DNA from: Methylococcaceae bacterium
GTDB lineage: Bacteria; Pseudomonadota; Gammaproteobacteria; Methylococcales; Methylomonadaceae
Reading direction: 5' to 3'
DNA: 42,144 bases
Assembly: GCA_021736705.1 (NCBI GenBank)
Contig: JAIPFI010000007.1
Coordinates: 1-42,144, forward strand
The notes beneath the pieces are model-generated. The model saw only the letters and a list, made by a program, of their open reading frames with translations, was not told the origin of the DNA and ran no database searches. A program made the translations under genes and the position numbers. Position 1 is the first letter of the stretch. Each line of letters opens with the position of its first letter. Positions 10,481-20,339 of this stretch are shown here, in pieces.

Positions 10481-11476
10481 CTACTCAGGTTTTAATAATT
10501 TTAGCTGATGGCTCACTATTGCTAATGCCCCCAATATTCCGAGCGTTGCCGCACCAATAATTAAGCTCACTGACTCCGAAAAATTCATGAAATGTAATTG
10601 AAACTGACTCTGATAAAGCATAGATAACTGCGCTATTGGAGAACTGAGCATAAATAACATGAAAGTGATAAGACTCCAGGCAAAACAACCCGCGATAAAA
10701 CCAAACCAAAAACCACTATACAGAAAGGGCAAGCATATAAATATATTTGTTGCTCCTACTAACTTTTCCACTACCACCTCATCTCGGCGCGTTTGTAACT
10801 CTAAACGTATGGTATTTCCAGTAATAAAAACCACGGCGATAGCTAACAAACCAGACAAAAACAAAACAAGCTGATTTGCTATTTGCATAATTGACTGCAA
10901 ACGCGCCACCCAATCCATATCTATTTGTGCAAAATCAACTTCTTGTTCATTTTTTGTTTGTTCTAACAACTGCGTTAATTGATATGCCTCAGTTATCTCT
11001 TGAGTAGGGAAAACCTGAATAACCGCAGGTAAGGGGTTACTTTCTAAGGCATTAAGTGCTGCGCCGAAGCCACTGTATTGCTGAAATTCTGTTAAAGCCT
11101 GCTGCTTGGAAATAAGCACGACGTTAGCAACACCTTCATAGCCTTGTATACGTTGCGCTAAATTTGCAGCCTGCTTATCGGAAATATGCTCATGTAAAAA
11201 CAATGAAAACTGCTTTCCCGTCTGCAAATTATCCACTAACTGCTGAGCATTATTGACTAATACATAAAAGCTACCAGCCAAAGAAAGCGCAATCGCCATA
11301 ACGATAATAGCCATAGAAGAAGTAAAAGGCGTACACAGTAAACGACGCAAACTAGCACTTAATGCTTCTCTATGTAGCAGCAAATTAATACTCAGCCAAC
11401 TCTCAGTCTTGCGCTTCTGATGGCTCTGTTTAACTTGCCGAGGACTTTCTATAGGCTTTCTTCTAACTGTCTTCAT
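10481..11476 (-). CDS. ftsX: Cell division ABC transporter permease FtsX
   Basis: A 331-residue membrane partner of FtsE that couples the divisome to septal peptidoglycan hydrolases through EnvC-type activators. A basic cytoplasmic N-terminus (residues 1-40) precedes the first membrane segment (about 55-75), a large periplasmic loop (about 76-205) and three further membrane segments with RDEVVVEKLVGATNIFICLP typical of the FtsX C-terminal domain. The start at 11476 overlaps the ftsE stop by four bases. It ends the ftsY-ftsE-ftsX run; rpoH, which follows ftsX in many gammaproteobacteria, is not here. Confidence 0.95.
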   Translation of the reverse strand: MKTVRRKPIESPRQVKQSHQKRKTESWLSINLLLHREALSASLRRLLCTPFTSSMAIIVMAIALSLAGSFYVLVNNAQQLVDNLQTGKQFSLFLHEHISDKQAANLAQRIQGYEGVANVVLISKQQALTEFQQYSGFGAALNALESNPLPAVIQVFPTQEITEAYQLTQLLEQTKNEQEVDFAQIDMDWVARLQSIMQIANQLVLFLSGLLAIAVVFITGNTIRLELQTRRDEVVVEKLVGATNIFICLPFLYSGFWFGFIAGCFAWSLITFMLFMLSSPIAQLSMLYQSQFQLHFMNFSESVSLIIGAATLGILGALAIVSHQLKLLKPE

Positions 11477-12135
11477 AAATGATATTTAATAAATGCACCA
11501 TGATCCAATTGCAAAACCCTATGATTCAACTTTGTCACTAATTCAATATCATGCGTAGCAATTAAAACTGTCACACCCACTTGTTTAAACTGCTCGAATA
11601 AATGCATAATTTCTGCTGATAATTGCGAATCTAAGTTACCTGTTGGCTCATCCGCCAAAATTAACGCGGGTTTATTTACAACTGCTCGCGCAATGCCTAT
11701 GCGCTGCTGCTCTCCTCCAGATAAAGTCAAAGGAAATTTATTTTCTTTAGCCAACAAACCTACTTTATCAAGTGCAGCACGGACACGTCTCGCCACCTCA
11801 TGCCGCCCAACACCTGCAACAATTAAAGGTAAAGCGACATTATCAAAAACAGTGCGATTAAAGAGCAATTTATAATCCTGAAAAATCAAACCTAATCTGC
11901 GCCGAAGAAAAGGAATTTGCCTGTCATGCATACGGCAAATATTTTGCCCATCAATCAATATCTGGCCTCGAGAGCATCGCTCAATAACAGCTACCAATTT
12001 AAGTAAAGTACTTTTTCCCGCCCCCGAATGCCCCGTCAAAAATGCCATTTCGCCTTCAGAAAGATGAAAACTAACATCCGTTAAAATATCTCCGGTATCG
12101 GTGTAGCGTTTAAACACATGATCAAAAGTCAACAT
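11473..12135 (-). CDS. ftsE: Cell division ATP-binding protein FtsE
   Basis: A 220-residue ABC ATPase that works with FtsX at the septum. Walker A is GHSGAGKST (about residues 35-43), the signature is LSGGEQQRIGIARA, Walker B is ALILADEPTG, and the H-loop is ATHDIEL. The length matches FtsE of E. coli (222). It overlaps ftsX by four bases and starts six bases after the stop of the ctaA-ftsY fusion, so it is probably co-transcribed with it. Confidence 0.97.
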   Translation of the reverse strand: MLTFDHVFKRYTDTGDILTDVSFHLSEGEMAFLTGHSGAGKSTLLKLVAVIERCSRGQILIDGQNICRMHDRQIPFLRRRLGLIFQDYKLLFNRTVFDNVALPLIVAGVGRHEVARRVRAALDKVGLLAKENKFPLTLSGGEQQRIGIARAVVNKPALILADEPTGNLDSQLSAEIMHLFEQFKQVGVTVLIATHDIELVTKLNHRVLQLDHGAFIKYHL

Positions 12136-12141
12136 AATAAA

Positions 12142-14115
12142 CTAGTGCTTATCCTGATTAAACAACGCATCAATAAAATCGCGCGCATTAAAATCTTGCA
12201 AATCATTAATACCCTCACCCACCCCCAAAAAACGGATAGGTACGCCTGCTTGTTTTGCTAAAGCGAAAATAATCCCTCCTTTCGCTGTACCATCTAATTT
12301 TGTTAGGGCTATACCTGACAACTCAACTGCTTTATTAAAATGTTCTGCTTGTGAGAGTGCATTTTGCCCCGTACCAGCATCCAAAACTAATAATACTTCA
12401 TGAGGTGCGGTATCATCGAGCTTACCAATAATGCGTTTTATTTTTTTCAACTCTTCCATGAGATTTGATTTAGTATGCAAGCGCCCTGCAGTATCAGCAA
12501 TCAACACGTCAATACCTTTTGCTTGTGCCGACTGTACCGCATCAAAAATAACCGAGGCTGAATCCGCACCTGTATGCTGTGCCACAACATGAATTTTATT
12601 GCGTTCACCCCAAACCTGCAACTGCTCAACTGCTGCCGCTCTAAAGGTATCGCCTGCGGCCAACATGACACTATGACCTTGTTGCTGTAATCTTTGCGCT
12701 AACTTACCAATCGTCGTTGTTTTGCCAGCTCCATTCACACCGACAACTAAAATCACATAAGGGCCTTGCTTCTCAGGTATAACTAAAGGCTGGCTCACAG
12801 GCTCCAACAACTCAAATAATTGCTGCTTTAACAAATCAGATAGCGCGTTAACATCTTGCAGTTGATGTTTTTCAACACTTCCCTCCAATTTAGCGATAAT
12901 GTCCGTGGTTACATCCATGCCCACGTCAGCCATCAATAAACTGGTTTCTATCTCTTCTAGCAAATCCTGATCAATCTTTCGGTTAGCAAAAGATACAACC
13001 GATAATGCCGCCCCTAAACCTGTCCGCGTCTTTCCAAGTTGCGACTTTAAACGCAAATATAAAGACTCAGATTCGACTAGCTCAGGAACAAGTATTTGTA
13101 CATCGGCTTCAACAGCAAGCGCCTGCTGCTCATCAGCCGTTAAGTCCTTGGAAACACCTAATCTTTCCGCAGGCAAAGTAACTGGCACTTCATCTACAGA
13201 TTTATATTTTGTATGAAACCTAATAAGCAACAAAGGCAACATCAACATCATAGCCGTAAGACTATGTACCACACTAACCCATACAGGCATAGACAGTCTA
13301 ACAAGCGCAATTCCAGTAGCAAATTGAACCAACAGTAACAAACTTATTGCGGTACCAGCCCATCGCACCGATTTAATGCGACTGCTAGTCGCGGATAACA
13401 TTAATGCCGTTAAACCAATAAAAACAATAATTGAAAAAATACGGTGCACCCAGTGCACAGCAATTTTCGCATCAAAGGACAATGGCGCTAAAAAGTTAAA
13501 CGCACTGCCATAATTTGCTTGTGGCCACCACGAATTTAAACACTGCGGAAAACCACTACAGACCAAACCCGCATGATTTGCAGAAAGCCAAGCACCTAGC
13601 AATAACTGCAAACTTAGAATAATGATAGCACTAGAAACAAGCCATGATTTAGTGCCATCTTTACGCTTAACGTAGCCGATTTTACTGTGTAAATAAGTAT
13701 GTACGACGACATATAATGCAAACACACTCAATACATAATGAGCCAACTGATTAAGTGCCTGAGTACCTAGCCAAGTTGTATGTAAGCCCAATTGAAGCTG
13801 TAAGCCCACTAAGCTTACTAAAATCACTGTACAAATCATAGAGCTCAAACGCGTACTTTTTAGCCAAATGCCGCTAAACAGCATCATGACTAACAATACA
13901 ACGATTGCAAAAGCACTAAACGAATGTATCAGACCAATAAATTGATTACTCTGAATGGCTGATTGACCAAGTATTTGTACTATTTGTGCATAACAACCCG
14001 AAAGCTCTGTACAGGAGTAACTATCAAACGACACAAGGCGCTGATATGCGCCAGTACCAGCAAGCAATAAAATAAAAAATCCAACTAAAGCAGTAAAAAC
14101 TCTAAACATACCCAC
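12142..14115 (-). CDS. ctaA-ftsY: Fusion of heme A synthase (CtaA/COX15) and SRP receptor FtsY
   Basis: One uninterrupted 657-codon frame joins two proteins normally encoded apart. Residues 1-300 are a complete CtaA/COX15 with eight membrane segments. The heme-ligand histidines are visible at His64, His126, His221/224 and His284, and the extracellular cysteine pairs at Cys35/Cys41 and Cys186/Cys192. Residues 305-350 are an acidic linker resembling the FtsY A region. Residues 351-657 are a full FtsY NG domain: amphipathic lead-in SLYLRLKSQLGKTRTGLG, G1 GVNGAGKTTT (459-468), GDTFRAAAVEQLQ (488-500), DTAGR (541-545) and TKLDG (605-609). CtaA converts heme O to heme A; FtsY docks ribosome-SRP complexes at the membrane. 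The cox cluster lies upstream and ftsE-ftsX downstream. The start may be GTG 14115 or ATG 14109. Whether it is made as one chain, cut, or also started internally cannot be told from the sequence. Confidence 0.88.
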   Translation of the reverse strand: MGMFRVFTALVGFFILLLAGTGAYQRLVSFDSYSCTELSGCYAQIVQILGQSAIQSNQFIGLIHSFSAFAIVVLLVMMLFSGIWLKSTRLSSMICTVILVSLVGLQLQLGLHTTWLGTQALNQLAHYVLSVFALYVVVHTYLHSKIGYVKRKDGTKSWLVSSAIIILSLQLLLGAWLSANHAGLVCSGFPQCLNSWWPQANYGSAFNFLAPLSFDAKIAVHWVHRIFSIIVFIGLTALMLSATSSRIKSVRWAGTAISLLLLVQFATGIALVRLSMPVWVSVVHSLTAMMLMLPLLLIRFHTKYKSVDEVPVTLPAERLGVSKDLTADEQQALAVEADVQILVPELVESESLYLRLKSQLGKTRTGLGAALSVVSFANRKIDQDLLEEIETSLLMADVGMDVTTDIIAKLEGSVEKHQLQDVNALSDLLKQQLFELLEPVSQPLVIPEKQGPYVILVVGVNGAGKTTTIGKLAQRLQQQGHSVMLAAGDTFRAAAVEQLQVWGERNKIHVVAQHTGADSASVIFDAVQSAQAKGIDVLIADTAGRLHTKSNLMEELKKIKRIIGKLDDTAPHEVLLVLDAGTGQNALSQAEHFNKAVELSGIALTKLDGTAKGGIIFALAKQAGVPIRFLGVGEGINDLQDFNARDFIDALFNQDKH

Positions 14116-14712
14116 TTACCCAATTTGAGAAATTCTAAGTAATTTTTGCAAATCACTCTTAACAGCATAAGGATCGAAACCTGATTTATATTGCATCATC
14201 AAATTACCAAGAGGATCCATTAATATTATCATTCCATCTGTAAGTTCTGCCGCCACCTTTTGCTTAATTTTTTCCAACAATGCTGGACTAGGCTTAACCT
14301 TCAATAATCGATCATCGGTATTCCACCAAGGTTGAAAGCTTGCCTCTTGGATACCTTGCACTACAATCACAGCACGTCTAACACGAGGTAAATCCTTATT
14401 TAGCATTAATAGTAACTGCTTAGTTGCATGAATCGCATCAATACAAAGCTGATTACACTCCTGATTGGGAATAATATTTAAAATAACCCAGTGCCCTTCA
14501 AGCTCTTTAATATTCGCCTCAGAAAAAACGTCTACCCCAAGTAAATCAATCCTTTCCGTAGTTACCACAGGAACAATTAACTCTCCTTTATTTGTTGCCA
14601 TGGGTTGAAAGTCAGGATTTTTTGTTAAATACCATGCAATTGAAAAAGGAATAGCGGTCATTAACGCTAAAACAATAATCGTGCGTTGATTCTTTTTTTG
14701 TTGATTATTCAT
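14116..14712 (-). CDS. SCO-like CX3C protein of the cytochrome oxidase cluster
   Basis: A 198-residue protein with one N-terminal membrane segment (about residues 11-28, IIVLALMTAIPFSIAWYL) and an extracytoplasmic domain. WVILNIIPNQECNQLCIDA carries a CxxxC pair in the place where SCO-type copper chaperones have theirs. The later DGMIILMDPLGNLMMQY resembles the end of a thioredoxin fold. A gene of this kind regularly sits between SURF1 and ctaA in gammaproteobacterial cox clusters. A role in oxidase assembly, perhaps copper or thiol handling, is inferred from that position and the CxxxC. It overlaps SURF1 by eight bases and its stop abuts the ctaA start. Confidence 0.75.
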   Translation of the reverse strand: MNNQQKKNQRTIIVLALMTAIPFSIAWYLTKNPDFQPMATNKGELIVPVVTTERIDLLGVDVFSEANIKELEGHWVILNIIPNQECNQLCIDAIHATKQLLLMLNKDLPRVRRAVIVVQGIQEASFQPWWNTDDRLLKVKPSPALLEKIKQKVAAELTDGMIILMDPLGNLMMQYKSGFDPYAVKSDLQKLLRISQIG

Positions 14713-15448
14713 CTTTATGTTTTTTACAACTTATCCAAAATATTAAGAATGTTAATGTAATTGCCAAAGCAAACCATTGCACAGCATAAGCAATATGTTT
14801 TTCCGGCGGCATACGCGTATTTATCTGCCAATCCCTTGCATAGCCATTTGGCTGATCGGGCAATAATTGCACCTGAAAATCAAAAATAGGCTGATTAAGC
14901 TTTTTTGCAATCTTGGCACTATTAATTATTTGCACAACGGAGGGCCATAAATCACTTGGCTCATCCGCCCCGGCCAAAACTAACCCAACCCCTGGAAAGT
15001 CATTAAGTATACCGTTCAAAACTAATTGACCAGAAGGCGGCATAAAATCAATCTTAGGTAATTGCTGCCTATCTTTACTCATGAGCACCCAACCACGATT
15101 AACCAAAACCAGCTTATTATTCGCCTCCAGCACAAAAGGGGTCAAAACAAAGCCTCCCACTTTACCATTTATAATTTGGTTATCGACTATAAATTGATGC
15201 GCAACATCATAATGCCCACGTAATTGTACTTGCCTATATCTCCATTCATCGTCAGCAGCTAGCAAATGGGGCAATGCTACCGGTGGTAACTGCATTTTTT
15301 CTTGTTGATCAGCCAAATGAGCACGCTTAATATCTGCTCTGCTTAACTGCCAAAAACCAAGACGCAACAAAAGAGCTAATACAGTAATAAAAGCTATAAA
15401 AGGGATAAAGTTAATTTTACAGCTATAGTTAAAAAAACTTAGTTTCAT
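14705..15448 (-). CDS. SURF1 family cytochrome oxidase biogenesis protein
   Basis: A 247-residue protein with the SURF1 layout: one membrane segment at each end (about residues 13-33 and 220-238) and a periplasmic domain between. Family signatures seen are LGFWQLSRADIKRA after the first segment, GKVGGFVLTPF, LVNRGWV and the C-terminal HIAYAVQWFALAITLTFLIF. SURF1 proteins help insert heme a into subunit I of aa3 oxidases. It is upstream of the CX3C protein and the ctaA-ftsY fusion and diverges from the DUF2909 gene. Confidence 0.93.
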   Translation of the reverse strand: MKLSFFNYSCKINFIPFIAFITVLALLLRLGFWQLSRADIKRAHLADQQEKMQLPPVALPHLLAADDEWRYRQVQLRGHYDVAHQFIVDNQIINGKVGGFVLTPFVLEANNKLVLVNRGWVLMSKDRQQLPKIDFMPPSGQLVLNGILNDFPGVGLVLAGADEPSDLWPSVVQIINSAKIAKKLNQPIFDFQVQLLPDQPNGYARDWQINTRMPPEKHIAYAVQWFALAITLTFLIFWISCKKHKDE

Positions 15449-15572
15449 CAGTTAATATCCCAAATAAAGCCGATAACATCATCATTACTTAATTAAAATC
15501 TTGACTAGGCTTATAATTATCAGATCATTAGCTACCCTAGCAAACCATCCATTCATAGACTATCTTACCACT

Positions 15573-15818
15573 ATGCTAAAAATTCTTATTATTCTTGTCT
15601 TTCTAATAATTCTTGCGAGCCTTGGCACGGCTCTCTATCATCTAATTATTCATAAAGAGTCTTCTGCAAAAACAGTCAAAGCACTAACTTACCGCATTGG
15701 AATTTCTCTGGTTTTATTTATCTTAATATCTATTGCTTTTATGACAGGCTTAATCCAGCCTTCAGGTATCGGCATGCAAATGCAACTACAAAAAGCAGCG
15801 CAACAAGAAAACAGCTAA
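15573..15818 (+). CDS. DUF2909 twin transmembrane protein
   Basis: An 81-residue protein with two membrane segments (about 3-22 and 43-62) separated by a short polar loop, ending in a Gln-rich tail. It matches the small DUF2909 family that occurs in cox clusters of Pseudomonas and relatives, often in opposite orientation to the structural genes as here. The function is unknown; a part in oxidase assembly is inferred from position. I chose the ATG at 15573 (MLKILIILVFLI) because the open upstream 24 codons show no family resemblance. Confidence 0.75.
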   Translation: MLKILIILVFLIILASLGTALYHLIIHKESSAKTVKALTYRIGISLVLFILISIAFMTGLIQPSGIGMQMQLQKAAQQENS

Positions 15819-15915: not shown

Positions 15916-16785
15916 TTACATCATATAAACAAAAATAAACAAACCCAACCAGACAACATCAACAAAATGCCAATACCAAGCCGCCGCTTCGAAAGCAAAA
16001 TGATTTTCAGGCGTGAAGTGACCTTTTGAGCTACGGAATAAAACCACCGTCAAAATAATGGCGCCGACACAAACATGAAAACCATGAAAACCAGTTAACA
16101 TAAAGAAAGTGGAACCATAGATACCAGAACCTAAAGTTAAACCCATTTCATGGTAAGCTTCTTGATACTCTATCGCTTGAAAAGCAACGAATAAAAAACC
16201 CAAGCCAACCGTCATAGCTAAACCTTTAATCAATTGACCACGATTTTTTTCAATTAAACCATGGTGTGCCCAAGTACAAGTAACACCGCTGGTTAAAAGG
16301 ATTAAAGTATTCAATAAAGGCAAGCCGAAAGCCCCCATAGGCTCAAATTCGCCACCAATATGACCTGGACCATTAGTAGGCCATACAGCCTCAAAAGAAG
16401 GCCATAGCATACCAGAAGAACGCCCCGGACCGTCACCAATGTTTGCCAACCAATCTACTGATAAATTACGCGTGTACCAAAGCGTACCGAAAAATACTGC
16501 AAAAAACATGATCTCAGAAAAAATAAACCACATCATCGCCATGCGGTAAGAAATACCCACACCTTTGTTATACATGCCCGTTTCACTTTCCGTTGCTTGT
16601 AAAGTGAACCAACCACCAATCATGATGATAAAAATTGACAAGCCGACGAGCATAAAAGTAGAGCCTGCCGCATTGCCATTTAAGTAGTTTGCAAAACCTG
16701 CCAATGAGGTCATCAAACCAATAGTCGCAGCTACCGGCCATGTTGCCTTATGTGGAATGTAATATGCGCCTTGTGTAGACATCAT
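15916..16785 (-). CDS. coxC: Cytochrome c oxidase subunit III
   Basis: This 289-residue, seven-helix subunit III stabilises the oxidase and its proton uptake. Signatures include GAYYIPHKATWP at the start, MFFAVFFGTLWYTRNL, GFHGFHVCVGAIIL and the C-terminal FAFEAAAWYWHFVDVVWLGLF. AGGGG lies five bases before the ATG at 16785; a second ATG follows directly. It stands ten bases after ctaG and is the last structural gene before the terminator. Confidence 0.97.
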   Translation of the reverse strand: MMSTQGAYYIPHKATWPVAATIGLMTSLAGFANYLNGNAAGSTFMLVGLSIFIIMIGGWFTLQATESETGMYNKGVGISYRMAMMWFIFSEIMFFAVFFGTLWYTRNLSVDWLANIGDGPGRSSGMLWPSFEAVWPTNGPGHIGGEFEPMGAFGLPLLNTLILLTSGVTCTWAHHGLIEKNRGQLIKGLAMTVGLGFLFVAFQAIEYQEAYHEMGLTLGSGIYGSTFFMLTGFHGFHVCVGAIILTVVLFRSSKGHFTPENHFAFEAAAWYWHFVDVVWLGLFIFVYMM

Positions 16786-16795
16786 AATCCCCTAT

Positions 16796-17323
16796 TTAGT
16801 TAGTAGTATCAAAAAATGTAAGTCCGAATGTCAGCCTTTTATAATGCTCAGGTAAAGTGGGGTTAATCACTAATTGCACCTCTAAGTGCTTAGTTTCACC
16901 CGCCTCAAAAACCTGAGTATCAAAACAAAAACACTCGGTATTTTTAACGTAGCCTACCGAAGGCCCCGGAGTAACACTCGGATTTGCCTTTGCAGTCATA
17001 CGCTGATCTGTTTTGTTGCTCGCTGTAAAACTCATCGTTACCACTTCACCAGGATGCACTTTAATCTCGTATTTATCAGCCTTAAAAGCTAAATCCGTAC
17101 CCGCACCCAGCGAAGTAATAAACTCCAGCGTTATTTCTCTTTGTGTATCAATCTTATAATCTAAAACAGCAGACTCTTGTTTAGTTTTACCATTAATGCC
17201 GGTTATCTCGCACAAAATATCGTACAAAGGTATTAAAGCAACAGCAAACAAAAACATAACGAACACCAAAATAACCAAGGCTCGAACTGTCTTTTTATTC
17301 CTCTGTTCTAAATCGACATTCAC
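16796..17323 (-). CDS. ctaG: Cytochrome c oxidase assembly protein CtaG/Cox11
   Basis: A 175-residue copper chaperone that delivers copper to the CuB site of subunit I. One N-terminal membrane segment (about residues 12-31) is followed by an immunoglobulin-like periplasmic domain with the copper motif CFCF (in NTECFCFDTQVF) and the family end LTFGLTFFDTTN. The start codon appears to be GTG (17321-17323), overlapping the stop of the 31-codon upstream ORF by one base (TAGTG), which suggests coupled translation. Confidence 0.95.
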   Translation of the reverse strand: MNVDLEQRNKKTVRALVILVFVMFLFAVALIPLYDILCEITGINGKTKQESAVLDYKIDTQREITLEFITSLGAGTDLAFKADKYEIKVHPGEVVTMSFTASNKTDQRMTAKANPSVTPGPSVGYVKNTECFCFDTQVFEAGETKHLEVQLVINPTLPEHYKRLTFGLTFFDTTN

Positions 17324-17418
17324 TAAGAGGTAACCCTTATTACAGCAAAAACATAAATTGAAATTGCAACAATCGCCAATGCGACCGCCGTCAAAATATT
17401 TTTTGTTTTAGTAGTCAT
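17323..17418 (-). CDS. Small single-pass membrane protein in the cox cluster (31 aa)
   Basis: Between coxA and ctaG, an ATG at 17418 opens a 31-codon frame ending in TAG at 17323-17325, MTTKTKNILTAVALAIVAIS... with a basic start and one hydrophobic segment of about 20 residues. Position, size and topology match the cytochrome oxidase small assembly proteins annotated between subunit I and ctaG in other proteobacteria. Its stop overlaps the GTG start of ctaG. It is too short for default gene callers. Function is not known from sequence. Confidence 0.6.
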   Translation of the reverse strand: MTTKTKNILTAVALAIVAISIYVFAVIRVTS

Positions 17419-17474
17419 TATCTTATTATCGCTTTGCTCATACAAACAACATATGAGCAAAGGATATACACTCC

Positions 17475-19088
17475 TTAGAAATGCTCTGTTGGAATTTTAT
17501 CTGGCGGAGTAGCAAAAGTATGATATGGCACAGGTGAAGGCAAAGTCCACTCTAAGCCATGCTTGTGCGCATCCTCCCAAACCTCATCAGATACTTTCTC
17601 GCCTGTACCACCTTTAATTGTATGAATAACAATATAAAGGAATAACAACTGACTAAAACCGAAAATAAATGCGCCAACACTAGATACCATATTCCAATCA
17701 GCAAACTGCACGGCATAATCAGGAATACGACGCGGCATACCAGCCAAACCTAAGAAATGCTGAGGGAAAAACAAAATATTAACTGAAACGGCAGATAACC
17801 AAAAATGCAATTTACCTAACTTTTCATCATACATATTCCCGGTCCATTTAGGTAACCAGAAATACCCACCCGCCATTAAAATAAAGACGGACGCAGGCAC
17901 TAAAGTGTAATGAAAATGAGCAACAATAAAATAAGTATCATGATACTGAAAATCAATAGGTGCCATAGACATCATCAATCCAGTAAAACCACCCATAGTA
18001 AATAACACCACGAATGCGATAGAAAACAACATAGGTGTTTCGAATGTCATCGATCCACGCCACATAGTTGCTGTCCAGTTAAAAATTTTCACTCCAGTTG
18101 GAATTGCAATTAACATGGTTGCATACATGAAATACAATTCACCCGCCATCGGCATACCCACTGTAAACATGTGATGCGCCCAGACGATGAATGATAAAAA
18201 TGCAATAGCAGCTGTCGCATAAACCATAGAGCTGTAGCCAAATAAAGGCTTACGTGCAAATACTGGAATAATAGTTGAAGCAACACCAAAAGTTGGCAGA
18301 ATCATTACATATACTTCTGGATGACCGAAGAACCAGAAAATATGCTGATAAAGCACGGGGTCACCACCGCCCGCAGCATTGAAGAAGCTAGTATCGAAAA
18401 AACGGTCAGTCAATAGCATTGTTACCGCACCCGCAAAAACCGGCATAATCGCAATCAATAAGAATGCAGTAATTAACCAAGTCCAAACGAATAGTGGCAT
18501 TTTCATCAATGTCATTTTCGGCGCACGCATATTGAAAATAGTTGCGATAATATTAATCGCTCCCATAATCGAAGAGATACCCAGCATATGTACAGAAAAA
18601 ATAGCAAAAGGTAATGCCGCACCTGTTTGTAAGACTAAAGGCGGATATAAAGTCCAACCTGAAGCTGGCGCACCACCTTCCATAAATAATGTACTGGCTA
18701 ATAACAATACACCGCCGACTAACATCCAGAAACTCATGTTATTCATACGTGGTAACGCCATATCCGGCGCACCAATCATTAATGGAATCTGCCAGTTAGC
18801 AAAACCAACAAATGCAGGCATTACCGCACCAAATACCATTACCAAGGCATGCATCGTAGTCATTGAGTTAAAAAACTGCGGACTCACAAATTGCATACCT
18901 GGTTCAAATAATTCGGCACGAATAACTAATGCCATTATTCCACCAACAAAAAACATCGCTAACGCAAATAATAAATAAAGCGTACCAATATCTTTATGGT
19001 TGGTTGTAATTACCCACCTTAGTAGACCTTTCTCAGGTCCGTGATCATGATGATCATCATGTTCATGTTCAGCTGTTACAGCAGACAT
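17475..19088 (-). CDS. coxA: Cytochrome c oxidase subunit I
   Basis: The 537-residue catalytic subunit of an aa3-type heme-copper oxidase. It starts with a His-rich cytoplasmic tail ([11 protein letters not shown]) before [18 protein letters not shown]. CuB and heme residues are visible: [26 protein letters not shown] with the D-channel glutamate, [10 protein letters not shown] with the paired histidines, GVKIFNW with the K-channel lysine, and [14 protein letters not shown]. These mark an A-type oxidase. I chose the ATG at 19088, with GAGG eight bases upstream, over an open extension to 19127. It follows coxB in the same operon. Confidence 0.98.
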
Positions 19089-19142
19089 AGTAATACCTCG
19101 TTTAATACTTAAAAAGATTTGCTTCAAACATAATAACGAATG

Positions 19143-20297
19143 TTATTCGTCATCAGAAACGATTGTTGGAATCGCTGCTTGTAAGGATTTGATAGCTGAA
19201 GGCTGAATTGAATCACCCACTGCATTACCTAAACCATTGCGTATAAATGTTGCTACTGCCGCAAAATCAACAGGATCTAACATTTGTCCAAAGGCAGGCA
19301 TCATACCTTTACCTTTTAGCATTAATTCTACTTGCGCATTAAGGTCACCCTTCACTACTGCACTATCAGTAATCGCTGGGAATGTGCCTGCTAAGCCAGC
19401 ACCATCTGCCATATGACAGGATGCACAATTATTAGCATAAACTTTTTCACCTTGGGCAATTAAATCTTCTTGAGTCCAGTCTTTTTCTGCAGCATTTGCC
19501 GCATCAACTGCTACGCCTTTTTGCGCAGCAACCCATACCTCATAATCTGCTTTTTCCATTGCAATAACAACAATCGGCATAAAACCATGATCTTTACCAC
19601 ACAACTCAGTACATTGACCGCGATAAGTACCGGCTTTTTCGACCGAAGTCCAAGCTTCGTTGATATATCCTGGAATCGTATCTTTTTTCCAACCTAAATC
19701 AGGAACCCACCAAGAGTGGATTACATCCGCTGCTGTAAATAAGAAACGAATTTTAGTATTAATCGGCACGACCAAAGGCTTATCAACATTTAATAAATAA
19801 TTGGGCACAGTTCGTGGATCAATACCAGAATCAAGTTGTCTCGCTTTATTGCTTGCTTCATCTAAGCTACTAAAAAAACGAACACCACTATCTAAGTATT
19901 CATATTCCCACTTCCACTGCCACCCCGTGACTTTAATGGTCATTTCTGAGTCTTTAGTATCATCCATTTGCAACATAACTTTAGTGGCAGGAATCGCCAA
20001 TAAAATTAAAATAACCGTTGGAATGATCGTCCAGATAATTTCCACTTTAGTACTTTCATGGAAATTTGCTGCTTGATACCCTCTAGACTTACGGTGAAAG
20101 TAAATGGAATAAAACATAGCACCGAATACAACGATACCTATGAATACACACACCCACAACACCAACATATGTAGGCCGTAAACATCTTTACTAATTGATG
20201 TCACCCCCTCCATTAAGTTAAGAGTGTAGTCCGCCTGAGCTGTCCCTAGGCCATAGGCCATAAGGAGCAGACTGGCGAATAATTGCTTTGTTTTCAT
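19143..20297 (-). CDS. coxB: Cytochrome c oxidase subunit II with fused cytochrome c domain
   Basis: A subunit II of about 384 residues: signal peptide (cleavage near AQA-DYTL), two membrane helices (about 43-68 and 87-110), a cupredoxin domain with the CuA motif CTELCGKDHGFM, and a C-terminal cytochrome c domain with the heme site CASCH and probable axial Met in KGMMPAFG. The c-type extension feeds electrons to CuA directly and is common in caa3 or c-fused aa3 oxidases. ATG 20297 or GTG 20300 could start it; GGGGAGG lies upstream of both. It is the first gene of the oxidase operon. Confidence 0.97.
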   Translation of the reverse strand: MKTKQLFASLLLMAYGLGTAQADYTLNLMEGVTSISKDVYGLHMLVLWVCVFIGIVVFGAMFYSIYFHRKSRGYQAANFHESTKVEIIWTIIPTVILILLAIPATKVMLQMDDTKDSEMTIKVTGWQWKWEYEYLDSGVRFFSSLDEASNKARQLDSGIDPRTVPNYLLNVDKPLVVPINTKIRFLFTAADVIHSWWVPDLGWKKDTIPGYINEAWTSVEKAGTYRGQCTELCGKDHGFMPIVVIAMEKADYEVWVAAQKGVAVDAANAAEKDWTQEDLIAQGEKVYANNCASCHMADGAGLAGTFPAITDSAVVKGDLNAQVELMLKGKGMMPAFGQMLDPVDFAAVATFIRNGLGNAVGDSIQPSAIKSLQAAIPTIVSDDE

Positions 20298-20339
20298 CAC
20301 GGAGTAGCCTCCCCTAAAAGTTAGAAACTGATTGAATGC

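Follow-up and report, generated by a model that had tools for sequence, protein, structure and literature searches.

The gene ftsY of a Methylococcaceae bacterium (assembly GCA_021736705.1), which encodes the receptor for the signal recognition particle (SRP), is fused in frame to ctaA, the gene for heme A synthase. The fused gene lies on the minus strand at positions 12142–14115 of the 42 144-nucleotide stretch of contig JAIPFI010000007.1 analysed here (the window). We think it probable that this gene encodes a permanently membrane-anchored and sole SRP receptor, carried on a CtaA pseudoenzyme in which heme b has probably been retained. Computation supports the fusion itself, its distribution, its single origin, the gene order around it, the presence of a second CtaA, the loss of catalytic residues, the faster evolution of the CtaA half and the invariance of its heme ligands. 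Such a receptor would be anchored through CtaA helices that no longer make heme A and may still bind heme b, and its binding of SRP would remain gated.

The open frame runs for 657 codons, counted from a GTG, with no internal stop; an uninterrupted in-frame fusion had been claimed in a first-pass annotation of this DNA, which gave no strand. The real start is probably an ATG two codons inside the GTG, because in 10 of the 13 genus mates scanned an ATG at the equivalent place is the earliest start-like codon and the consensus N-terminus of the fused family opens with MFRK. Pfam recognizes COX15-CtaA at residues 56–293 (85.3 bits; cut-off 29.9), SRP54_N at residues 378–433 and the SRP54 GTPase at residues 452–652 (258.1 bits). 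The NCBIfam ftsY model TIGR00064 scores 361.8 bits (cut-off 260.7), and together these matches bear out the earlier claim of a complete FtsY NG domain. The gene and its parts are as follows.

12142–14115, minus strand: ctaA::ftsY fusion gene, 657 codons from the GTG; probable start ATG at 14107–14109 (655 residues).
13189–14109, minus strand: CtaA (type 1B) module, residues 3–309, with eight predicted transmembrane helices (Pfam, AlphaFold2, Foldseek match 6a2j, hydropathy).
13924–13935, minus strand: degenerate helix II catalytic motif, G61-L-I-H64 for E-x-x-H, followed by S65 for R (motif from PMC12808453).
13444–13446, minus strand: H224 (H3), heme b ligand by homology, invariant in 48/48 fused proteins (alignment).
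13264–13266, minus strand: H284 (H4), heme b ligand by homology, invariant in 48/48 fused proteins (alignment).
13066–13188, minus strand: variable linker, residues 310–350, of low model confidence, with no ATG and no GTG or TTG with a Shine–Dalgarno (SD) match of at least four bases.
13018–13062, minus strand: FtsY lead-in region (alpha N1), residues 352–366; modelled helix 352–361 (role from PMC5533587).
12145–13065, minus strand: FtsY NG domain, residues 351–657, the sole FtsY found in the genome.
12712–12741, minus strand: G1 loop GVNGAGKTTT, residues 459–468.
12481–12495, minus strand: DTAGR motif, residues 541–545.

H64, H126, H221, H224, H284 and the two GTPase motifs were all located where the first-pass annotation had named them. 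The GTPase motifs are intact, with G459, N461, G462, G464, K465, T466, T467 and DTAGR 541–545 invariant in 48/48 fused proteins.

AlphaFold2, given 48 fused proteins as input, modelled the whole fusion as two domains joined by a low-confidence linker, with a mean predicted local distance difference test score (pLDDT) of 80.4, falling below 50 at residues 310–350. The predicted template modelling score (pTM) was 0.50, and the mutual arrangement of the CtaA and NG domains is therefore undefined in this model. Modelled alone, the CtaA half has eight helices (pLDDT 92.3, pTM 0.88). Its best Foldseek match in the Protein Data Bank (PDB) was 6a2j, the Bacillus subtilis heme A synthase (E 2.8e-7, template modelling score 0.70), followed by the Aquifex enzyme 8aw5 (E 2.1e-3) and then by a match of only E 0.33; searching the PDB by sequence with this half gave no match at E 0.1. 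The NG part is 62% identical to the Escherichia coli FtsY structure 6cqp over the NG domain. As modelled, FtsY is thus predicted to carry transmembrane segments, eight helices in all, N-terminal to its NG domain.

We searched 311 genomes of the order Methylococcales, with follow-up searches, and compiled the tally by hand from the result tables; a genome was counted as having one frame across the junction when a match ran from CtaA into FtsY in one frame or when both matches lay in the same frame. In families f1–f6, the junction is spanned by one open frame in 274 of the 291 genomes; 11 gave no FtsY match, four stop at a contig edge and two are frame-broken. Some of the counted frames are clipped by contig ends (for example G012, G100, G111, G113, G167, G171 and G290). 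Two frames flagged as stopping inside (G033 and G045) are continuous in the DNA, and for 15 further fused entries we took such a flag to mark the gene end. The CtaA half is barely recognizable in genus g8 (G024, G273). FtsY is unfused in 19 of the 20 genomes of families f7 (18 genomes) and f8 (two genomes); a complete FtsY was not found in the other, G068. Genus g47 apparently has an extra CtaA of the fused type without FtsY (G090 contig C13, 504114–504866; L217 of G089).

An assembly or sequencing artefact, or chance read-through, might be suspected in a source genome that is an 86% complete draft of 2.84 Mb in 196 contigs, and in two relatives the frame does break near the junction: at L207 (G102) and L218 (G240), CtaA and FtsY lie in overlapping different frames, reflecting either a sequencing indel or a real split. 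Nevertheless, the junction is crossed in one frame in the 274 genomes counted above, which include single-contig ones (G039 and G054 among others). Since the same frame is intact in genomes whose gene is 82–86% identical to that of the window (checked in L033 and L034), the fusion is not an assembly error. Misassembly or an indel at the junction, a concern raised in the first-pass annotation, is ruled out by this recurrence in sister genomes, which extends across six families of the order; we regard an artefact as refuted and its residual probability as negligible.

Public contigs matching the fusion come from Methyloprofundus (Methylococcales), from a Bathymodiolus methanotrophic symbiont and from Methylococcales and Methylococcaceae metagenome-assembled genomes. 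In a class-wide FtsY sample of 369 genomes, four of them from the order, only G000 (the source genome), G027 and G039 were fused among the matches listed; four long frames considered as FtsY fusions elsewhere in the class (G644, G593, G397 and G575) proved to lack CtaA. A class-wide CtaA search of 143 genomes, 95 of them with CtaA, included only G000 and G039 as known FtsY fusions. It also returned long CtaA frames of 632 residues (G375) and 582 residues (G406). Frames of 864 residues (G046) and 718 residues (the stand-alone CtaA of G057) were rejected as larger fusions, as by eye they look like stop-free upstream runs.

Within the 86% complete source genome the fusion gene is the only FtsY found, and the stand-alone ftsY that would have spoken against its role was not seen. 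The two further SRP GTPases were rejected as a second ftsY: they are Ffh (TIGR00959, 560.6 bits; cut-off 473.2) and FlhF (TIGR03499, 263 bits; cut-off 174.15).

A lasting tether would not result if CtaA and FtsY ended as separate chains, through internal initiation or cleavage of the linker. In line with this alternative, the linker is variable and modelled with low confidence, and E. coli FtsY is clipped near the border of its A and N domains. We scanned codons −50 to +13 around residue 346 in 49 fused genes for internal starts. An in-frame ATG precedes the NG domain by 40–50 codons, near the end of helix VIII, in 24 genes and lies elsewhere in six; in 10 of the 49 there is, at scattered places around the NG start, an in-frame GTG or TTG with an SD match of at least four bases. 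Against this, 19 genes have no ATG in the stretch, no internal ATG in the 49 has an SD match of more than three bases, and the window gene has neither an ATG nor a GTG or TTG with an SD match of at least four bases in the 50 codons before its NG domain. Moreover, the frame is preserved in 274 of the 276 assessable genomes. Separate translation of FtsY is therefore unlikely; cleavage included, we consider separate chains an unlikely outcome.

The view that the CtaA half is now a pseudoenzyme comes from its catalytic residues, from the presence of another CtaA and from its evolutionary rates. Catalysis is linked to E57, H1 and H2 in the N-terminal bundle, the heme ligands H3 and H4 belong to the C-terminal bundle, and the glutamate of the E57-x-x-H1-R motif is strictly conserved, while H1 may be Asn in some lineages (PMC12808453). 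In the fused copy of the window the motif reads G-L-I-H-S, so that Glu and Arg are gone; all four histidines and both cysteine pairs (C35/C41 in L1 and C186/C192 in L5) are kept, the L5 pair being present in 47/48 fused copies. The complete eight-helix CtaA described in the first-pass annotation therefore stands as a fold, with its eight helices and its match to 6a2j, but not as an active site.

The fused copies as a group vary in the same residues. Of the 49 fused proteins, 48 entered alignment A1 (L133 was left out); L120, L122 and L133 were left out of A2, and the partial L017 was excluded from the sets used for motifs, rates and trees. Glu is present at E57 in nine of the 48 copies, H1 is His in 36 (it is lost in 12, one of them a gap), H2 is kept in 35 and lost in 13, and H3 and H4 are present in all 48. 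Six copies (G023, G028, G032, G036, G040 and G060) have an intact ExxHR motif together with H2. At the other extreme, the stretch containing H1 is gone in genus g14 (L120), for which six helices are predicted; 16 other g14 frames are of similar length (564–582 residues).

We counted second copies of CtaA with Pfam PF02628 in 61 of the 311 genomes (54 of f1–f6 and seven of f7/f8). A stand-alone CtaA, judged by frame length, is present in 52 of the 54 f1–f6 genomes, with fragments in G013 and G017; this search revealed none in G040 or in G050, which is 85% complete. All seven f7/f8 genomes have a single CtaA. The source genome has its stand-alone CtaA on contig C56, which answers the question, raised in the first-pass annotation, of whether a ctaA exists elsewhere; it scores 199.1 bits with Pfam, compared with 85.5 for the fused copy, and has no NCBIfam match at 1e-30. 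In this protein E57, H2, H3 and H4 are in place and H1 is Asn, a known natural variant. The product of this gene (L166, 1432–2421) reads EYLNR at the motif and has a single cysteine pair, and no cox gene was recognized among the few open reading frames listed around it.

The 15 stand-alone copies examined of the 52 all read E-Y-x-N-R with H2, H3 and H4, and the unfused CtaA of f7/f8 read E-M-x-H-R with H2, H3 and H4 in 7/7 cases. Among 30 control loci from the class, all 12 single type-1B copies (L195–L206) keep E-M-x-H-R, H2, H3 and H4, and 15 others, which lack the cysteine pairs, keep Glu, H1 and H2. The control loci L187, L189 and L191 come from genomes outside the order (G412, G392 and G324) with two or three CtaA each, one of them a type-1B copy with T-x-x-H-R and H2 replaced by Asn. 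These copies adjoin another CtaA on the same contig, which looks like a separate CtaA duplication and decay, and they resemble the pattern of CtaA type 1.1 (PMC8239418).

Evolutionary rates separate the fused CtaA from the others. Expressed relative to FtsY, fused CtaA has a distance of 4.30; in the same 13 genomes stand-alone CtaA reaches 1.21, and the unfused CtaA from six f7/f8 genomes reaches 1.73, so that the fused half evolves ~3.5 times faster than its stand-alone counterpart. The N-terminal half is slower than the C-terminal half in stand-alone CtaA (0.91 versus 1.62) and in unfused CtaA (1.34 versus 2.15), whereas in fused CtaA it is the faster (5.43 versus 3.41); the last N-half rate is understated, because saturated pairs were excluded (59 of 78 pairs kept). 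The ratio of non-synonymous to synonymous substitution rates (dN/dS) is 0.11–0.33 for the fused CtaA half (13 pairs), 0.05–0.13 for stand-alone CtaA (three pairs), 0.02–0.14 for FtsY and 0.24–0.98 for the linker; four of the five unfused CtaA pairs were saturated at synonymous sites and so provide no dN/dS control. Across the 48-sequence alignment the CtaA half has just two invariant residues, the heme b ligands H224 and H284, and the near-invariant ones (G174, W176, C186, P190, C192, P198 and R225) belong to the C-terminal bundle, with R5 the exception. The dN/dS values, the rates and the invariance of the ligands lead us to conclude that the CtaA half is relaxed but not free: its fold and heme b site are held and its catalytic site is not. 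By homology of its ligands, it probably still binds heme b.

The first-pass annotation had proposed that this one chain might couple oxidase cofactor supply to membrane protein insertion, with the CtaA half still making heme A. Several features are in keeping with this: the window copy retains its four histidines and both cysteine pairs, the gene still lies beside cox2-cox1-cox11-cox3-surf1, dN/dS is well below 1, and G040, which has an intact site and no other CtaA, suggests that an active fused state probably existed once. However, the losses of H1 and H2 among the fused copies and the faster evolution of precisely the catalytic half argue against it. Because the genome has a second CtaA with E57, H2, H3 and H4, because the Glu and Arg of ExxHR are lost and because the fused half evolves ~3.5 times faster, a coupled heme A synthase is improbable here, and the coupling is not supported for this genome. 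The notion of an FtsY permanently tethered to the enzyme that makes heme A thus survives in its tether, as we infer it, and not in its active enzyme. The further suggestion of a neutral tether comes nearer to the evidence, although the anchor is constrained, as its dN/dS and its two invariant heme b ligands show.

It might also be that the heme b module is a redox or heme sensor that tunes FtsY to the respiratory state, such that heme occupancy or the redox state of H224/H284 would alter where the anchored FtsY sits or how it oligomerizes, thereby coupling insertion to respiratory or heme status. The two histidines are the sole invariant residues of the CtaA half, the near-invariant residues share their part of it, and both persist where the catalytic half has decayed or shed helices. 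On the other hand, heme b is perhaps merely required for folding, and the variable linker offers no conserved signal path. We consider both a sensor in general and this form of it rather improbable, and return to the permanently anchored receptor.

The fusion appears to have arisen once. In a tree of FtsY NG domains, the 49/49 fused proteins form one clade (support 0.918), which joins the six unfused proteins of f7/f8 (0.859); the 32 other sequences all fall outside this group. A CtaA tree built without stand-alone copies places the 47 fused halves in one clade (ultrafast bootstrap 100), with G040 splitting first (99 for the rest); the CtaA trees omit G046, G024 and the stand-alone copy of G057. 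Taken together, these trees indicate that the fusion is of single origin.

Gene order suggests how it came about. In the unfused loci L134–L138 the cox genes are followed through surf1 by PA0111, ctaA, ctaB and (senC) in one direction, and this row faces rpoH, ftsX, ftsE and ftsY, which are encoded on the other strand with ftsY the farthest away. In four f6 loci (L121, L124, L126 and L127) PA0111 is followed in one direction by ctaA::ftsY, ftsE, ftsX and rpoH, and then by ctaB on the opposite strand. The two orders fit a single inversion that spans ctaB to ftsY, with breaks after ctaA and before ftsY; the frames of ctaA and ftsY would have been joined after it. The inversion signature is complete only in those four loci. 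The f3 loci L123 and L131 have an rpoH-like gene upstream, on the opposite strand, no rpoH was found after ftsX in the window's genus (L033 and L034), and ctaB was not found in the stretches examined of the other fused loci among L113–L133. The ctaB of the source genome lies on contig C41 (339.3 bits). The neighbours of the fusion gene in the window are as follows.

10481–11476, minus strand: ftsX (Pfam and synteny).
11473–12135, minus strand: ftsE, 6 bases after the fusion gene (Pfam ABC ATPase, named from its place before ftsX; synteny).
14116–14712, minus strand: PA0111-like redox disulfide protein, the upstream neighbour (NCBIfam NF058629, 41.7 bits, below the cut-off of 230; synteny).
14705–15448, minus strand: SURF1 (Pfam).
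15916–20300, minus strand: cox3, cox11, cox1 and cox2 of the cytochrome c oxidase operon (Pfam and NCBIfam).

The PA0111-like gene sits between surf1 and ctaA in both fused and unfused loci. Within the cox operon, on the opposite strand, 15501–15818 encodes a small protein with twin transmembrane helices (NF033233, 51.5 bits; cut-off 49), which is present in many related loci.

We propose the following course of events. In the ancestor of the six families an inversion would have brought ftsY downstream of the cox-operon ctaA, and their frames would have merged. A separate, type-1C-like CtaA would have been acquired and have taken over heme A synthesis, as its presence in nearly all fused genomes examined suggests. 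The fused CtaA would afterwards have lost its N-terminal catalytic site and kept its membrane fold and C-terminal heme b ligands. G040, the first branch of the fused clade, with its intact active site and no other CtaA found, is in the state expected between fusion and takeover.

In the present protein the CtaA module would take over from a short N-terminal patch the task of keeping the NG GTPase at the membrane, to which it is joined by a flexible linker. The unfused FtsY of relatives has such a hydrophobic and basic patch (MFGFGKKK-like) before its lead-in helix; a strict pattern for it matched 20/37 unfused and 0/49 fused proteins, bearing in mind that the pattern misses 17/37 unfused proteins, with many near variants, and that the scan took in only 50 residues ahead of the NG domain in fused proteins and up to 150 in unfused ones. 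In E. coli FtsY the alpha A1 motif makes the first, dynamic membrane contact and alpha N1 the second, gated one, and a membrane-fixed FtsY without alpha N1 targets indiscriminately and does not support growth (PMC5533587). The patch of the relatives presumably corresponds to alpha A1. In the 48 fused proteins R355, L356, L360, T363 and R364 of alpha N1 are invariant, and we believe that this helix would have been retained to gate SRP binding. With the patch replaced by the CtaA anchor and these alpha N1 residues invariant, the protein has the profile expected of a permanently attached, still gated receptor. The heme b of the anchor would serve folding or, less likely, sensing. Permanent tethering of FtsY has been reported to be functional in E. 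coli (PMC2780400, citing Zelazny 1997).

Several points weigh against this proposal. Binding of heme b is read from two residues, and in g8 (L122) the CtaA half goes unrecognized by Pfam and the alignment is gapped around H3. The full-length chain is predicted from the gene sequence and may be cleaved after translation, and 10 of the 49 genes have the SD-backed GTG or TTG codons described above. As the window copy keeps its four histidines and its cysteine pairs, the case for its loss of activity is built on the missing Glu and Arg, on the rates and on the presence of a second CtaA. Natural stand-alone CtaA with a substituted E57 is on record, in groups tabulated in PMC8239418, and may be active; the CtaA modules of the six fused proteins with intact motifs may also still be active. 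Finally, when the CtaA tree is rooted on distant stand-alone copies, the fused CtaA is not a clade, which we take to be a rooting problem.

Among the nearest known counterparts is the construct of Zelazny 1997 (cited in PMC2780400 and PMC5533587), which likewise has the NG domain on a foreign membrane domain and is reported to be functional in vivo. That construct was made in the laboratory, whereas CtaA-FtsY is natural, order-wide and joined to one specific partner, in our reading a former enzyme. Naturally membrane-bound receptors are known from Gram-positive bacteria and archaea, whose FtsY has a transmembrane or an extended lipid-binding helix; theirs is one N-terminal segment, in contrast to eight helices derived from CtaA (PMC2780400). 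The eukaryotic SR alpha/SR beta receptor also has its SRP-binding GTPase held permanently at the membrane by another protein part (PMC2780400), but SR beta is a separate GTPase subunit and the CtaA anchor belongs to the same chain and is not a GTPase. With the type 1B CtaA of B. subtilis (6a2j) the anchor shares its fold, eight helices, two cysteine pairs and H3/H4 heme b ligands; unlike that enzyme, the window copy lacks the Glu and Arg of ExxHR, is fused to FtsY and has a second CtaA elsewhere in the genome. CtaA also occurs in CtaA-CtaB fusions (PMC9145763, PMC8239418, PMC12808453), which join two enzymes of one pathway, whereas here the partner belongs to protein targeting. Substituted catalytic residues are likewise found in CtaA type 1.1 (E57K and H123N; PMC8239418), which is not fused to FtsY.

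We found no report of an FtsY-CtaA fusion in open-licence PMC papers, consistent with the statement in the first-pass annotation that none was known to it. A survey of CtaA excluded fusion proteins from its alignments, and the term 'FtsY' is absent from its text (PMC12808453). The parts are thus known, and a tethered FtsY is known in principle; a natural fusion of FtsY to a CtaA pseudoenzyme across most families of an order appears to be undescribed.

Annotating the CtaA-FtsY protein as a heme A synthase could mislead. The fusion offers an ordered case of the passage from enzyme to anchor, with an inversion and fusion, G040 with one intact CtaA, a stand-alone copy in nearly all others examined and repeated catalytic loss, in which two heme ligands are under the strongest remaining selection. 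Whether the bacterial SRP receptor works by way of the cytosol or at the membrane only has been debated (PMC2780400). In much of an order, co-translational targeting appears to rely on a receptor unable to leave the membrane, and because the receptor is apparently locked there, this debate becomes testable in a natural system.

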